In this document: positions 6,628 through 28,862 of the stretch, piece by piece | Layout of the letters: each line of letters begins with the position of its first letter | How positions within the stretch are numbered: the stretch's first letter is position 1 | Source: a virus | DNA: 29,546 nucleotides | Reading direction: 5' to 3' (one strand) | IMG/VR virus record: IMGVR_UViG_3300020455_000071 | Location: 1-29,546 of that record | The notes under the pieces: model-generated | The model's database searches: none | What the model was told of the DNA's origin: nothing | What the model saw: only the letters and a program-made list of their open reading frames with translations | Position numbers and translations under genes: made by a program

Positions 6628-8310
6628 TTAAAATGGAATTGAATCATCTATTACAGTAATTCTTGATTTTACATTTGAAATGCCTTCATACATTCCACCT
6701 TTTTTGTAATTTGGTGCAACAGCAAAATTCCCTTGTTTTCCATTTTCTTTTCTTTTAACTTTTTGAATATGTATTCTAACAACATCAGAATCATATTTTG
6801 ATTTTTCGCCAATACTACGATACACACAAATAGCGTTGTATGCTTTATTAAAAAAGTCACTACTGCCAGATATATCATAAGGATTTGGAACTTTATAAAT
6901 TCCATTTTCAGTTTCCATTTTTCTAGGATGAGCAATCAAAAAAAGGTGTGTGTTTGTCTGTTGAACAAACTGAGTTATCTCGCTTAGTTGCCTACCAATA
7001 TATGAATGATCAACTTGTTTTGTGTGATCCAGTTGATTGTATGGATCAATTACAAATACATTAATTCCTTTTTGAAAAACAAGTTCACGAAAAATATCTA
7101 ATATGCTTTTTAGTGATAAACTTTCTAAATTAATTTTTACAAAGAAAAATCTCGATTCAATGAAGTTTTTTGTTTTATTTAAAAGATCATTATCACAAAA
7201 ATTTTCATTTAATTTATTAGCAATCCTTTTTATATGTCCCTCAAATGGAAATGATTCTGGTGAAAACATTCCAATTTTAAATTCATGTTTCATTGCTAGA
7301 TTACAACAAACTTGATCAATAAAATCACTTTTTCCAGCATTTGGGATTCCAGTAACTATGCTCCATTGTCCAAGTTCTAATTTAAAATAATCATCACTTT
7401 CGCCAATTCCTATGCTGTAATTTTTAGTTCCATTTTCATTAAAATCTAAAACACTTGACCAAATGTCATCAACATTAATAACGCCTTTTATTGGAAACGC
7501 TTTTGCCTCATTTAAATAATTTCTAAGTATCTCAGCACCTTCTTTAACAAGTATTTCATTAGCATCTTTATAATCTTTGAAATCAACATATTTACACCGA
7601 TATTGTCCAAATCTTCTCGCTAGTTCTTTTCTTAAATTAAGCCCAGCATTATCGTTGTCAGTACAAAGAACAATTTCAGTTTTATTTTTAAAATATTGAA
7701 AACAATTGTCTAAATATTCAAGTTTTTGATTTCCTTTTGATGCTCCATTTGGAACAGAACAAACAGAATATATCCCAGCTTCATGAAGTGATAAAGCGTC
7801 AATTTCTCCTTCAACAATGTATATTTTGTCCATTTTAACAATTTTATCAATGCCATAAAAAATAAGTTCTGCATTTGATACCATTTTAAAGTTTTTTTCG
7901 CCATCTCTATATTTAACATTAACGAGTTTATTTTCTCTGTAATAATTAAAATTTATTGCTTTTCTTCTTTTTTCAACTTGTGGAAAGTATTCTATTGATT
8001 CTGTTATTTTCCAATTATTTAAGGTATTTTGAGAAATACCTCTTTTTGCAAACCAGCTGACTGTTCTATCGGATAAATTATTATTTTTTTCAACTGGAAT
8101 AGTAAATTGTTTTTTTTCTTTAAACATAACATTCCCAGAAAAGCCGCAATTATGACAATTATAAACTCCTTTATCAATATTAACGCTTAAAGGTTTATCT
8201 CTTTTGTTTTTTCTATCAGCATGACAATTTGGGCATTGAAGTTTTTGCTCTGTTGTTTTATCAGTTGCTTTAATACCTAATTTGTGAAATTCTGCTAAAA
8301 TTAATGACAT
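6628..8310 (-). CDS. Bifunctional TOPRIM primase / DnaB-type helicase
   Basis: This 560-residue protein should unwind DNA and prime lagging-strand synthesis, like T7 gp4. Domains in order: an N-terminal zinc ribbon (CPNC at 26-29, CHNC at 52-55); a TOPRIM fold with VEGEID (E168) and CTDNDNAG (D218, D220); and a RecA-type helicase core with Walker A GIPNAGKS (321-328), Walker B FVIDPYN (D422) and LIAHPRK (H461). The last residues, IDDSIPF, resemble the acidic C-terminal tip of single-stranded DNA-binding proteins. No DNA polymerase is encoded, so host polymerase is presumably recruited. It follows the PD-(D/E)XK gene after seven bases. Confidence 0.94.
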   Translation of the reverse strand: MSLILAEFHKLGIKATDKTTEQKLQCPNCHADRKNKRDKPLSVNIDKGVYNCHNCGFSGNVMFKEKKQFTIPVEKNNNLSDRTVSWFAKRGISQNTLNNWKITESIEYFPQVEKRRKAINFNYYRENKLVNVKYRDGEKNFKMVSNAELIFYGIDKIVKMDKIYIVEGEIDALSLHEAGIYSVCSVPNGASKGNQKLEYLDNCFQYFKNKTEIVLCTDNDNAGLNLRKELARRFGQYRCKYVDFKDYKDANEILVKEGAEILRNYLNEAKAFPIKGVINVDDIWSSVLDFNENGTKNYSIGIGESDDYFKLELGQWSIVTGIPNAGKSDFIDQVCCNLAMKHEFKIGMFSPESFPFEGHIKRIANKLNENFCDNDLLNKTKNFIESRFFFVKINLESLSLKSILDIFRELVFQKGINVFVIDPYNQLDHTKQVDHSYIGRQLSEITQFVQQTNTHLFLIAHPRKMETENGIYKVPNPYDISGSSDFFNKAYNAICVYRSIGEKSKYDSDVVRIHIQKVKRKENGKQGNFAVAPNYKKGGMYEGISNVKSRITVIDDSIPF

Positions 8311-8317
8311 AGGGGGG

Positions 8318-8869
8318 TTATTTTAAAATTTTTAAATGTTCTATGTTGTTTTTGATATGAAATCGGTTTTCAAATATAAATTCACTAAATCCGATTAAAT
8401 CCTTTTTTTCCAGAACAAACGCTGGTACTTTTGTTTGACGAATATTCTTTTCTTTAAACAACATTTTATTAGTTGCAAAACCAAAAAACTTATATTTAGG
8501 ATATTTACAACCAAAAAAAGCGAATCCATGAACATCACTTTTTGACCACACTGGAGTCATTAATGGTAAATTTTTTTCAGTTGTTTTAACGTCAATTGTT
8601 ATACCTGACAAAGTTGCATCATAATTATCTGTATTTTTGATTTTTGAATTATTATTGATACTATAATCAGAATGAATATTGAAATTCTTACAAAATATAA
8701 ACTCAGCTCCGAATCCGATAAGGTTTCTGTGGAGGTGTTTATGATCGTTGGCGACAGTGCCTTTTCCACTGATTCCAGAATTTTCTTTGTTGATTTGCCT
8801 ATATTTAGCTGTTAAAGCAACAATTTCTTGTTCTAATTTATTAAGCTCAAATATTTCTCCTATTTTCAT
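8318..8869 (-). CDS. Putative PD-(D/E)XK nuclease
   Basis: In this 183-residue protein the nuclease core appears to be IGFGAEFIF (E56), NYDA (D84) and TIDVKTT (D93, K95), matching the E...D...DxK spacing of PD-(D/E)XK enzymes. The later GFAFFGCKYPKYKFFGFATN stretch fits the beta-rich end of that fold. The N-terminal 50 residues are helical and charged. It overlaps the HTH initiator gene by four bases (ATGA type) and precedes the primase-helicase, so a role in processing replication or recombination intermediates, such as a junction resolvase, is plausible. The fold is inferred from motifs only. Confidence 0.62.
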   Translation of the reverse strand: MKIGEIFELNKLEQEIVALTAKYRQINKENSGISGKGTVANDHKHLHRNLIGFGAEFIFCKNFNIHSDYSINNNSKIKNTDNYDATLSGITIDVKTTEKNLPLMTPVWSKSDVHGFAFFGCKYPKYKFFGFATNKMLFKEKNIRQTKVPAFVLEKKDLIGFSEFIFENRFHIKNNIEHLKILK

Positions 8870-9597
8870 TGTATTTCTATATTTCTTGCAAATTTTTCTT
8901 TAAAAAGATCAATGTATTTAACGCCATCTTTATTTGTTGCTCTGAGTTTCATAATGCTGTAAAAATTATTTGACCAAAATTGATCATTTCTAACTTTTTT
9001 AACGATGTAATAAATTTCTCTTGGAGCATACCCATCTAATCGTTGTAATTTTTCAAGTGTATCAAGCCATTTATTTTTTTGAGCAGTGGATTTTGGATGA
9101 AATCTTTCTGGAAATAAATTAATAATATGCTTAGTTGCATCTATTAATGTTGTTGAGTAAATTATGTCCTTTTTTGGCGAATTTTTAACTGATTTATCAT
9201 TTTTTTGATTTTGTACTATATTATTCTTTTTATTACTATTATATAGTGTAGTATTATCCTTAAACTTTTCTTTAAGGGGGTCAATTAACTTTTCTTTATG
9301 GGATAACTTTTCTTTAAGGGGTATTAAAGAGATTCGCCTTTCGCTAATTTGCTTGGAATTTTTATAATATATATACTCAATATCAATGTATTTTTTCTTC
9401 TGTAATTGTGAAATCCATTTTGAAATAGAAACGATGCTAACTTTATACAGTTCGGAAAAATAAGCATTTGATGCCCAGCAATAACCTTTCTCATTTGAAA
9501 GGGCTGTTAATTCGCCATACATTAATTTAGCGTTAGGAGTTAACTCACTATCATAACGTATTGATGCTGGAATTATAGCATAATAATTTTTTTGCAT
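8866..9597 (-). CDS. Replication initiator-like protein with helix-turn-helix domain
   Basis: In this 243-residue protein, residues 1-75 form a winged-helix/HTH_36-type domain (ASIRYDSELTPNAKLMYGEL then the recognition region near ISKWISQLQKKKYI), the N-terminal arrangement of lambda O-like and other phage initiators. Residues 93-114 are a repetitive KEKL linker encoded by three direct DNA repeats. Residues 115-145 are a low-complexity Asn/Lys linker, and 150-225 a helical domain with WLDTLEKLQRLDGY and FWSNNFYSIMKLR, common in such proteins. The following PD-(D/E)XK and primase-helicase genes support a job in origin recognition and helicase loading. Identity as an initiator is inferred. Confidence 0.76.
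   Translation of the reverse strand: MQKNYYAIIPASIRYDSELTPNAKLMYGELTALSNEKGYCWASNAYFSELYKVSIVSISKWISQLQKKKYIDIEYIYYKNSKQISERRISLIPLKEKLSHKEKLIDPLKEKFKDNTTLYNSNKKNNIVQNQKNDKSVKNSPKKDIIYSTTLIDATKHIINLFPERFHPKSTAQKNKWLDTLEKLQRLDGYAPREIYYIVKKVRNDQFWSNNFYSIMKLRATNKDGVKYIDLFKEKFARNIEIQ
9200..9321 (-). other. Candidate replication origin: three iteron-like repeats beside an A+T-rich tract
   Basis: Inside the initiator gene the plus strand has three near-identical copies of AACTTTTCTTTAAGGGG at 9263-9280, 9287-9302 (one T for A change) and 9305-9321, spaced 24 and 18 bases. Directly beside them, 9200-9260 is almost entirely A and T, with the partial inverted repeat ACTATAT...ATATAGT at 9214-9247. 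Iterons plus an A+T-rich unwinding tract inside an O-type gene is the layout of the lambda origin. The repeats also encode a KEKL peptide repeat, so protein-level repetition is the alternative explanation. Confidence 0.45.
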
Positions 9598-9956: not shown

Positions 9957-10214
9957 TTATGATTTATGCACAACGTCTTTTATATGATCAAAAAATTCTC
10001 TCATTTCAGTAAATATTTTTTTAAATCTTGAAATGCTTATTTTTTTATCTTCAAATACTTCAAATAAAACTTCAAGCAAAATATCATATTCAGCATTTGT
10101 CATTGTTCCAACAAGTTTATAATTAATGCCAACATCCCCAGCACTTGTTGAAGTTCGCCAGATTCTTTGATCAACAGAGTTCCAATAAACATTTCGATAT
10201 TCACTCCAGCTCAT
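9957..10214 (-). CDS. Hypothetical protein, 85 residues
   Basis: The N-terminal half (MSWSEYRNVYWNSVDQRIWR then STSAGDVGINYK) is Trp/Tyr-rich, and the rest is predicted helical (NAEYDILLEVLFEVFEDKK). The ATG overlaps the stop of the DnaA-domain/VRR-NUC gene in an ATGA junction, so the two are likely translationally coupled and may work together. The last codons contain the sequence TTATGCACA on the plus strand (9964-9972), which matches the bacterial DnaA-box consensus. The function is not recognised. Confidence 0.62.
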   Translation of the reverse strand: MSWSEYRNVYWNSVDQRIWRTSTSAGDVGINYKLVGTMTNAEYDILLEVLFEVFEDKKISISRFKKIFTEMREFFDHIKDVVHKS

Positions 10215-10882
10215 GATTTTTTATTTTTTAGATGATTATCTATTATTTTTATCGTTTCATCATAGGTATTTAACCAATAAGTGTCCCAGTTTGCATTTTT
10301 AAGGCGGTTTAAACACACTTTTTGATTTTCTGTGGGTTTATTATATCCAACTTTTAATTCGATGGCTAAGCCGCTAAAATCTTTATTTGGCTCAAATATT
10401 AAAATGTCTGGAACACCACTCACCCCACCCAAAATTTTAAATTTAAACCTTTCAAATGGACTTCTTTTCCCTTCATTTGGTACATGAATTGCAAAAACAT
10501 TTGGGTATTGTAATTTAATATATTGCATCACTGACCTTTGAAGTAAATCTTCTTTAGTTAAAAAATTCTCGTATGGATTCCGTCCCATTTTATTGTCATT
10601 TTTATATTTTGTTTCGCATAAACTACTCAAATTTAAGTAATCTAATTGCAACAGTTTATCTTGTTTTAAAATATTTGGTAATTGACTAATGCCATAACAA
10701 ACAGTTGAATGATCTCGATTGACAACTTTAGCAATTTTTTGATAAGTCATTGTTCTATTATAATGCCGAGCCAAATCATAAAATATAAATCTTGCATAAC
10801 AAAGATAACGATCTCTTTTTTTAGATGAAATATCAGCTTTGTAATAATTTGATATTAAGTCCTTTATGTTGTTAACTTCCAT
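10211..10882 (-). CDS. Fusion of DnaA domain IV-like DNA-binding region and VRR-NUC nuclease
   Basis: In this 223-residue protein, residues 21-72 match the C-terminal double-stranded DNA-binding domain of DnaA: the segment RYLCYARFIFYDLARHYN, then IAKVVNRDHSTVCYGI, where R56-D57-H58-S59-T60-V61 corresponds to the DnaA signature. Residues 110-205 match VRR-NUC, a PD-(D/E)XK nuclease family: Q115, GGVSGVPDILIF (P158-D159), AIELK (E175, K177) and Q187. Residues 75-105 link them. The ATPase domain of DnaA is absent. A role in site-directed cleavage or nicking at an origin-like sequence is inferred. It lies between the RecE-like exonuclease and the coupled 85-residue gene. Confidence 0.86.
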   Translation of the reverse strand: MEVNNIKDLISNYYKADISSKKRDRYLCYARFIFYDLARHYNRTMTYQKIAKVVNRDHSTVCYGISQLPNILKQDKLLQLDYLNLSSLCETKYKNDNKMGRNPYENFLTKEDLLQRSVMQYIKLQYPNVFAIHVPNEGKRSPFERFKFKILGGVSGVPDILIFEPNKDFSGLAIELKVGYNKPTENQKVCLNRLKNANWDTYWLNTYDETIKIIDNHLKNKKS

Positions 10883-10890
10883 ATTATTTT

Positions 10891-11652
10891 TTATAAAACA
10901 ATTGATCCATCATCCCTTGTATTTTCATTGTCATAACTTGTAACAATTCCCTCTTTAATATATAATTTCCAGTTTAAAAATGCTTTTTGATATTCTTTAC
11001 GACCATTTTCAATTTCAGCATCATCAAGAGCATAAACTTTTACTGTATAGGGTTTTGATTTTTCACAAGCAATGAATCTAAAATTATAAGGGTCATAACC
11101 TAAAGCATCACAATAAAAACACGCTTGTAAATGATATTTTCTCCTATATATTTCACTTTTAAATGCTCTGGGTGAATTATCAATTGTTGTTTTTATATCA
11201 CTGATCCAATCATCGCCAATGCAATCTGGTCTGACTCTGACTGGAACGCCCTCAATATCAAGATAATGAGATAATTCAATCGCACCTTTACAGTACTTTT
11301 TTGCCAGTGGATCAAGCATAAATTTTGAATAAATTCCAGAAATAATCTGCATTTGTGATTGATCAATTAATTCTTTATTATTAGCAATTTTTTCATAAAC
11401 TTTTAATTGTTCTTTTCCTTGTTTTGTTCTAAGATCAAGTTTTGGTTGCAAATAATATTCTTTTGAAAATTGTTTTTCGCCTTCTAATAGCATTGTATGA
11501 ACTGCTGAACCTGTAACCATTTCTTTTGATGTTTTTATTGGATCAGCATTCAAAAAATGTTCAACTGATTTTGTGGCTATGATTTTTAATCCACTTGCAG
11601 AAATTGAATCTTTTGAATGGTATTCTTTATTTGTATCAAACTTTTTTATCAT
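10891..11652 (-). CDS. RecE-like exonuclease, PD-(D/E)XK superfamily
   Basis: This 253-residue protein is probably a 5'-3' double-strand exonuclease that makes single strands for the annealing protein. Visible motifs: GSAVHTMLLE at 48-57, RVRPDCI with D143, SDIKTT with D152 and K154, and HLQACFYCDAL with Q176, the order of RecE/exonuclease VIII and related DUF3799 proteins. It shares an operon with the ERF annealing protein, the classical exonuclease-annealase pair for phage recombination and end joining. The start overlaps the preceding gene by 17 bases. Confidence 0.87.
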   Translation of the reverse strand: MIKKFDTNKEYHSKDSISASGLKIIATKSVEHFLNADPIKTSKEMVTGSAVHTMLLEGEKQFSKEYYLQPKLDLRTKQGKEQLKVYEKIANNKELIDQSQMQIISGIYSKFMLDPLAKKYCKGAIELSHYLDIEGVPVRVRPDCIGDDWISDIKTTIDNSPRAFKSEIYRRKYHLQACFYCDALGYDPYNFRFIACEKSKPYTVKVYALDDAEIENGRKEYQKAFLNWKLYIKEGIVTSYDNENTRDDGSIVL

Positions 11653-11992: not shown

Positions 11993-12313
11993 TTAAAAGG
12001 GTAAATCATCATTTTTTTCAGCATCATTTGAAACTTCATCAGTTTCATCAATTCGCCACCCTTGTATTGTGTTAAAGTATTTAGTAACACCCTCTGGATT
12101 TACCCATCCACGACCACGAAGGTTAATTCCAATCTTTACAGTTTGATCAGCTTTAAAATTATTAAGCAAATCACATTTGTCTTGTACAAATTCGATTGAT
12201 AAATCTTGGGGATATTGTTCAGCTGTTGTAATCACAACCTCTCTTTTGCGAAAATCTTTATCTCCGTAAGATTTTGTTTCATTTATTAATTTAATTTTTC
12301 CAATTACTTCCAT
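11993..12313 (-). CDS. DUF3127 protein, probable single-stranded DNA-binding protein
   Basis: This 106-residue protein shows the family pattern: DFRKREVVITTAEQYPQDL (20-38), QDKCDLLNNF (44-53), INLRGRGWVNPEG (63-75) and YFNTIQGWRI (79-88). The fold is expected to be OB-like. The C-terminus NDDLPF has the acidic, Pro-Phe tip by which single-stranded DNA-binding proteins recruit partners. It sits between the ERF annealing protein and the exonuclease, which fits a single-strand binder working in recombination and replication. The family label is from recognised sequence pattern; the binding role is inferred. Confidence 0.82.
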   Translation of the reverse strand: MEVIGKIKLINETKSYGDKDFRKREVVITTAEQYPQDLSIEFVQDKCDLLNNFKADQTVKIGINLRGRGWVNPEGVTKYFNTIQGWRIDETDEVSNDAEKNDDLPF

Positions 12314-12331
12314 ATTATTATTTATTTATTA

Positions 12332-13015
12332 TTATTTAAGATTAAACGCTTCAATTAATTCATTTTTGATGGTTTCATTAGAAAAAACAACCTTGTCAGA
12401 TGTAAGTGCTTTTTTTGCATCTGTTGGGTTTTTTATTTTTTTAATACTATTTTCATCAATAACAAATTTTTCTATTTTTACAGAACCATTTCCAGCAACT
12501 TTTTTACTTGTTACAGATTTTTTTTGATTAGTTTCTGCAATTGTATTATTTATAGTTGTGGAAATTTTTTGTTTTAAAATACCATGATCATTTGTTGAAT
12601 CTGCATCTGCCGTGTCGTCAATTAGTAATAAATTACCAAGTGCGTATTTCTTTCCATAGCTCGATGCACTACCAAATTGTTGAGGTACTTGCATCCCTTT
12701 TTGATTTAAGTCAATACCAACAATTGCTGTTGCAGATATACAACAGTTAATGTCAGTAATATCAAAAACAGTTGCAGTACTTTTGATAATAGGGACAAGT
12801 TCACTTTGAATATAATCTTCTGTGATTTTAAAATAAACTCCATATTTTCCATTTATGGGTTTTAATGCTTCTAGAATATCTTCGGCTGATCTAAAGTTAT
12901 ATTTACCGAATGAATTAAAGCGAGATTTTTTCGCCTTAAATTCTTGTTGAATTAAACTTAATTTTTCATCAATTGTTAATCCATTTTTTTTGTTTACTGC
13001 CTTATTTTTTTCCAT
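12332..13015 (-). CDS. erf: ERF-family single-strand annealing recombinase
   Basis: This 227-residue protein should anneal complementary single strands during phage recombination. The core is clear: FGKYNFRSAEDILEALKPI (36-54), QQFGSASSYGKKYALGNLLL (112-131) and LIDDTADADSTND (131-143), all hallmarks of the ERF family. The C-terminal 80 residues are a Lys/Thr-rich tail of low complexity. Its start overlaps the XRE regulator by 22 bases, and the DUF3127 and exonuclease genes follow, forming a recombination module. Length is normal for the family. Confidence 0.93.
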   Translation of the reverse strand: MEKNKAVNKKNGLTIDEKLSLIQQEFKAKKSRFNSFGKYNFRSAEDILEALKPINGKYGVYFKITEDYIQSELVPIIKSTATVFDITDINCCISATAIVGIDLNQKGMQVPQQFGSASSYGKKYALGNLLLIDDTADADSTNDHGILKQKISTTINNTIAETNQKKSVTSKKVAGNGSVKIEKFVIDENSIKKIKNPTDAKKALTSDKVVFSNETIKNELIEAFNLK

Positions 13016-28469: not shown

Positions 28470-28862
28470 TTAATCAAAGACAAAGTTATTAAATTTATTT
28501 GAATGTTTGCCAACTAAACTTAGTCGAATTGTATGGATGTTCCCTGTGTTTCTAAAAATAAAAAATCCATTATATATCTCAACCCATACAGCAAAGAAAT
28601 CAACGTATTTTTTTAAATATGGTTTTTTATTGTTTTCAATATTTATTTGAACATTATTTTGTTTTCTATTTGTTTGACCTTCAATGAGTAAAGGTTGTTT
28701 TTTTGTTGACTTAACTTGAACTTTCACAAGTTTTTTCCCAGTGTCAACAATACAGTCGTAAATAGATGAATGTAAAACTGGCATTGAAATATTAAGCCCT
28801 CTTTTCATACATTCGGTAACGAATTTATACTCTGCAAAACATCCTTGTTGATTTACATCCAC
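28470..28862 (-). CDS. PD-(D/E)XK endonuclease (group I intron endonuclease-like, PF11645 type)
   Basis: In this 130-residue protein, the motif order fits this family: GCFAEYKFVTE with E11, SIYDCIVD with D36, and VKVQVKST with Q49 and K51, where Gln in place of the first acid is usual in this family. The VDFFAVWVE segment (87-95) is the following core strand. The start is GTG at 28862. It is a single-gene unit with terminators on both sides, inserted between the capsid and connector genes. It may be a free-standing homing endonuclease or a DNA-processing enzyme; the sequence does not decide this. Confidence 0.8.
   Translation of the reverse strand: MDVNQQGCFAEYKFVTECMKRGLNISMPVLHSSIYDCIVDTGKKLVKVQVKSTKKQPLLIEGQTNRKQNNVQINIENNKKPYLKKYVDFFAVWVEIYNGFFIFRNTGNIHTIRLSLVGKHSNKFNNFVFD

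Follow-up and report, generated by a model that had tools for sequence, protein, structure and literature searches.

A DnaA domain IV joined to a VRR-NUC nuclease in uncultured marine phages: a plausible junction resolvase with a duplex-binding module

The stand-alone VRR-NUC proteins characterised so far, among them psNUC and the bacteriophage enzymes stNUC and saNUC, possess an E-PD-ExK active-site motif, form dimers, and cleave four-way DNA junctions, psNUC most cleanly and the two phage enzymes with weaker selectivity (PMC4103454). VRR-NUC domains also occur joined to further domains, as in FAN1, a monomeric 5'-flap nuclease in which a helical insertion blocks dimer formation. As to domain IV of DnaA, its base contacts in the Escherichia coli protein are made by R399, P423, D433, H434, T435, and H439 (PMC7561715). 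One precedent for this domain on a DNA-cutting enzyme is presented by the TnpA-REP / TIRYT HUH endonucleases (subclass 2.1), which encode a C-terminal Bac_DnaA_C domain, and for TnpA-REP the authors suggested that this domain either targets the enzyme to replication forks or provides a changed recognition site (PMC6006769).

Here we describe a phage protein in which a DnaA domain IV and a VRR-NUC nuclease are fused. With psNUC, stNUC, and saNUC it shares the fold, the E-PD-ExK motif, a conserved glutamine, and a nuclease size of about 125 aa, but these proteins are devoid of a DnaA domain and are not known to be translated from an internal start of a longer gene. FAN1, while likewise a VRR-NUC with added domains, differs in its monomeric form and 5'-flap activity and in carrying no DnaA domain. 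The TnpA-REP / TIRYT enzymes share a DnaA_C domain on a DNA-cutting enzyme, but they employ an HUH tyrosine nuclease, carry the DnaA_C domain at the C-terminus, and are related to transposases rather than placed among phage recombination genes. Finally, DnaA domain IV itself (E. coli 1j1v, Mycobacterium tuberculosis 3pvp) shows the same fold, with R399, R407, and H434 kept in the phage clade and D433 in the protein studied here, while the fusion differs from DnaA in having no AAA+ domain, in changed equivalents of P423, T435, and H439, and in the attached nuclease. No description of the DnaA_C-VRR-NUC pair was found in the literature searched, nor did it prove to be a widely described family, in agreement with the initial annotation of this DNA, and the pair seems to be undescribed, its principle having a precedent in the DnaA_C-HUH nucleases. 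The fusion itself is already present, unnamed, in a structure database: BFVD entry A0A516L0Z0 (218 aa) matches it over the full length with 46% identity and carries no name or function there.

The gene is located in an IMG/VR virus record of 29,546 bases that was analysed whole (hereafter, the window) and that is classed linear and hence may be incomplete. The ORF (10211-10882, minus strand) is a single unbroken frame of 223 codons, recognised through Pfam, PHROG, and NCBIfam profiles, an AlphaFold2 model, and PDB matches. Its residues 4-66 (10685-10873, minus strand) match Bac_DnaA_C (PF08299) with an E-value of 5.7e-11 and 42.7 bits versus the curated Pfam cut-off of 31.5, and are also supported by a family search across the phage's own genome. 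A helix at residues 76-98 (10589-10657, minus strand; assigned by DSSP on the model) extends the DnaA domain and links it to the nuclease, residues 103-223 (10214-10576, minus strand). The Pfam profile VRR_NUC (PF08774) matches residues 138-202 at 1.2e-4; its 22.5 bits fall slightly short of the 23.8-bit cut-off, which a relative (L078) exceeds. A stronger match, 1.9e-25 over residues 103-222, is to PHROG 824, a family to which no function has been assigned. The closest solved structures by sequence (phmmer against PDB sequences) are the VRR-NUC 4qbl and the E. coli DnaA domain IV 1j1v. The motifs DHSTV (57-61), GVPDILIF (156-163), and AIELK (173-177) are found along with Q187, and the active-site set E-PD-ExK-Q is made up of E111, P158-D159, E175xK177, and Q187, all of which are invariant in an alignment of 31 fused proteins. 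No AAA+ ATPase (DnaA domain III) was detected with Pfam and NCBIfam, the ORF holding domain IV and VRR-NUC only, and PADLOC returned no defence-system match for the fusion.

An AlphaFold2 model built from the 31-protein alignment has a mean pLDDT of 88.6 and a pTM of 0.52, indicating that each domain is well defined and that their relative placement is not; confidence is lowest at residues 99-101, after the 76-98 helix. In the model, residues 1-94 align to DnaA-box-bound DnaA domain IV with Z values of 16.4 (3pvp) and 15.4 (1j1v) and an rmsd of 1.4, and residues 109-223 align to psNUC (4qbl) with a Z of 14.7 and an rmsd of 1.9 over 106 residues; two other VRR-NUC structures, 4qbn and 4qbo, follow at about 10. 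Archaeal Hjc (about 7) and RecU (about 6.5) come next, in a band where common, unrelated folds also score, and are weaker matches for this reason. The domain composition first read from the letters is thus borne out: DnaA domain IV, by both profile and predicted fold (Z of 15-16), and VRR-NUC, by motifs and structural matches, are joined in one unbroken ORF without the ATPase part, the one shortfall being the VRR_NUC profile score of the second half.

The DNA-contact residues are kept in part. The window protein maintains R23, R31, D57, and H58, equivalent to E. coli R399, R407, D433, and H434, and it has S59 for T435, a glutamine for P423, and a tyrosine for H439. Across 66 DnaA_C sequences, R407 and H434 have invariant counterparts, and a single sequence lacks that of R399. 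At the D433 position the sequences mostly have D or N, with N in most of the fused proteins and D in the window protein; at T435 most have A or S; the P423 proline is gone; and about half retain H439.

The fusion gene is part of a recombination operon. Directly upstream in the operon is a RecE/exonuclease VIII-like gene (10891-11652, minus strand; phrog_412, 1.7e-59), and further genes on the same strand encode a single-strand DNA-binding protein (SSB; DUF3127, 11993-12313; Pfam and PHROG) and an ERF-type single-strand annealing protein (12332-13015; Pfam, 7.2e-28). On the other side, the end of the fusion gene is overlapped by p85 (9957-10214, minus strand), a small protein conserved as a neighbour in relatives and with no Pfam family match, and beyond it are a phage replication initiator (HTH_36, 8866-9597, minus strand; Pfam and phage initiator PHROGs) and a primase-helicase (6628-8310, minus strand; phrog_239, 3.8e-88). 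The gene order of the clade is HTH, ERF, SSB, p113, RecE, fusion, p85, initiator, primase-helicase, terminase, portal, the gaps in it coinciding with low similarity or with contig ends, and in all the clade relatives checked that cover the region the fusion is positioned between RecE and the initiator. The portal is closest to those of Cellulophaga phages phi12:1 and phi18:1 (34% identity), and the primase-helicase resembles those of Flavobacterium and Tenacibaculum phages, pointing to a marine bacterium of the Bacteroidota as the probable host. Other flavophages have different annotated junction nucleases in the replication region, NinG/Rap in morran9-1 and Harreka_1 and endonuclease VII in Tenacibaculum phage JQ. 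A PD-(D/E)XK endonuclease (PF11645, 8e-12) is also encoded in the window (28470-28862, minus strand); it weakly matches a homing endonuclease in PADLOC and may be a homing enzyme.

Fused and split versions of the locus are both frequent in IMG/VR. Searching by pattern for the two motifs, spaced as in the fusion, revealed two further fusions, and a scan with a three-fusion alignment revealed 278 relatives, the best 80 of which were read. Both domains are present in 80 of these 80, fused in 56 and encoded by two genes in 24, in a sample that favours loci with both domains since ranking was by the whole query; the fusion, first noted in a single phage, is thus recurrent, in contigs from many samples and down to about 42% identity. 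In the 24 split relatives the DnaA_C gene is directly upstream of the nuclease gene, and in most of these the two reading frames differ, that of the nuclease being +1 to that of DnaA_C, with a gene overlap of 44-86 nt. Programmed frameshifting was considered for this group and set aside, the overlaps, read by eye, showing no common slippery site. A C-terminal tail of about KSIRKIFN, encoded in the overlap, recurs in several split contigs (L078, L072, L094, and others). A scan with the nuclease part only revealed at least 558 relatives, and among the best 80, the ranking being by similarity to a member of the split type, 69 have an adjacent DnaA_C gene, 2 are fused, 7 have no upstream DnaA_C gene, and 2 are cut off. 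Two of the seven, L169 and L206, have a VRR-NUC ORF whose start resembles the helix that links the domains in fused proteins, suggesting that the DnaA domain was likely lost secondarily. The fused or split state requires five changes on the nuclease-domain tree, at least two of them forced by well-supported branches. For 13 pairs, dN/dS was 0.05-0.25 in the DnaA half and 0.02-0.19 in the nuclease half, pointing to purifying selection on both.

Similar pairings are apparent in unrelated phages. Eight high-GC contigs have a DnaA_C gene abutting or overlapping a VRR-NUC gene; in five (L013, L017, L109, L110, L120) both proteins score above the Pfam cut-offs, in two (L012, L118) the DnaA_C half does and the VRR-NUC half falls below, and in one (L116) the pairing was assigned by eye. 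As these came from a proximity search, they establish its occurrence in other phages but say nothing of its frequency. Ten other candidates were discarded as having no DnaA_C beside VRR-NUC (L016, L111-L115, L117, L119, L121, L129), as were two human-gut 'phage' matches (L101, L102), which turned out to carry full bacterial dnaA genes. Two scans of genome contigs for bacterial relatives produced one MAG contig only (L098), with a VRR-NUC and no DnaA_C, and gp30 of Cellulophaga phage phi12:1 (254 aa), also a VRR-NUC, has no DnaA_C match. The domain is also found free-standing, with no adjacent VRR-NUC, in phages Harreka_1, phi19:3, tooticki6-1, and Ssp-JY42; in the latter, a Synechococcus phage, an Acb3-like anti-CBASS gene (L099, 5559-6452) is present two genes after it. 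The 3-4 kb plasmids of Blattabacterium (L214, 2076-2417; L215, 2120-2485) encode a VRR-NUC about 40% identical to the nuclease half of the window protein, adjoining genes for ribonucleotide reductase beta and dUTPase.

The junction between the two halves contains a candidate second start, an internal ATG (M99; 10586-10588, minus strand) from which a free VRR-NUC of 125 aa could be made. Among 26 fused representatives, less than 92% identical to each other, a start-type codon is present no more than four codons before the nuclease core in all 26 (ATG in 8, TTG in 17, GTG in 1). The junction leucine is TTG in 17 of 17 cases versus 16% of leucine codons in the fused genes overall, and where the following codon is for alanine it is GCA in 12 of 12 versus 41% of alanine codons overall. 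Of all five-codon stretches in the alignment, only four, which overlap one another at the junction, contain a start-type codon in every representative. These counts are to be read with shared ancestry in mind, the 26 junctions not being independent, but the pairs examined have diverged at synonymous sites by 0.2-2.7. The predicted short product would be 121-132 aa long, and the nuclease genes of the split loci are mostly 123-127 aa. From this codon conservation, free nuclease is probably also made from the internal start.

What such a protein may do can be weighed against several alternatives. That the ORF is a product of misassembly or of a frame error, or a fusion that arose by chance in a single phage, has some appeal on the grounds that relatives often have overlapping genes in different frames, which a frame error could join, but the recurrence of the fusion in 56 of the best 80 relatives, in many diverged contigs, and the purifying selection on both halves leave this explanation with next to no probability. 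The initial annotation had proposed a site-directed origin nuclease, cutting or nicking at DnaA-box-like sites, or a weapon against host origins; such nicking might serve to start phage replication. The window protein does have equivalents of R399, D433, and H434, and its gene is near a replication initiator, but D433 is replaced by N in most fused relatives sampled, and the DnaA box TTATNCACA is neither avoided nor clustered: under a third-order Markov model, 1 is observed versus 1.3 expected in the window and 53 versus 38.6 in the fused loci, with no recurrent DnaA-box cluster. An apparent depletion in the window under dinucleotide shuffles was dropped in favour of this stronger model. Moreover, the phage has a separate initiator gene, inside which are three 17-nt iteron-like repeats (AACTTTTCTTTAAGGGG; 9263-9321, plus strand; found by repeat search), a candidate origin that resembles phage origins inside initiator genes; the core motif of these repeats, TAAAGAAAAGT, recurs three times inside the initiator genes of relatives L078 and L095. 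Characterised VRR-NUC enzymes are structure-selective (PMC4103454), of a type that resolves junctions and is not known for cutting duplex at sites. We thus find origin nicking unsupported and improbable, and the same applies to attack on host origins, for a gene that belongs to a recombination operon and has relatives split into neighbouring genes or devoid of the DnaA part.

The DnaA part could instead act mainly as a regulator or decoy at host DnaA boxes or phage promoters, repressing transcription or blocking host initiation, with a separate nuclease co-translated by happenstance. Free-standing DnaA_C proteins in the four phages named above are in line with this, as is an internal start that would release the nuclease from the DnaA part, but the recurrent fusion and the tight adjacency, also in unrelated high-GC phages, are hard to explain in this way, and we consider it unlikely. 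Rather unlikely, too, is a version in which the DnaA domain steers junction cutting to particular sites, such as the phage origin, the packaging site, or the host origin, with the ratio of tagged to untagged subunits from the internal start setting the timing.

We favour, as reasonably likely, a phage DNA-junction resolvase of the VRR-NUC type with a duplex-binding module derived from DnaA domain IV and with an internal start, based on the junction cleavage by stand-alone VRR-NUC proteins and on the place of the gene among recombination genes. The nuclease, probably dimeric, would cleave DNA junctions and, with the neighbouring ERF, SSB, and RecE, would resolve branched intermediates from both recombination and replication before packaging. 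The DnaA-type domain would grip the duplex beside the junction, perhaps with some preference for particular sites, while the internal start would probably yield free nuclease, so that tagged and untagged subunits could mix. The two domains, their conserved catalytic and DNA-contact residues, the operon setting, the recurrence, the purifying selection on both halves, and the codon-level conservation at the junction are observed here, whereas we infer that junctions are cleaved, that the nuclease dimerises, that the internal start is used, and what the DnaA domain does. Against the resolvase reading, the phage enzymes stNUC and saNUC select junctions less strictly than psNUC; the DnaA domain is kept so often that it must be useful, and a plain tether has no obvious need for a DnaA-type fold; the nuclease occurs in a few relatives that have no DnaA part; and the equivalents of D433, T435, P423, and H439 vary.

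Overall, a large group of uncultured marine phages pairs the DNA-reading part of DnaA with a junction-type nuclease. If the DnaA part guides the nuclease, this would be a natural case of a structure-specific nuclease given a sequence preference. If it only tethers, the pairing would still suggest a role for the free-standing DnaA_C proteins of phages, and the apparent internal start offers a testable two-product design.
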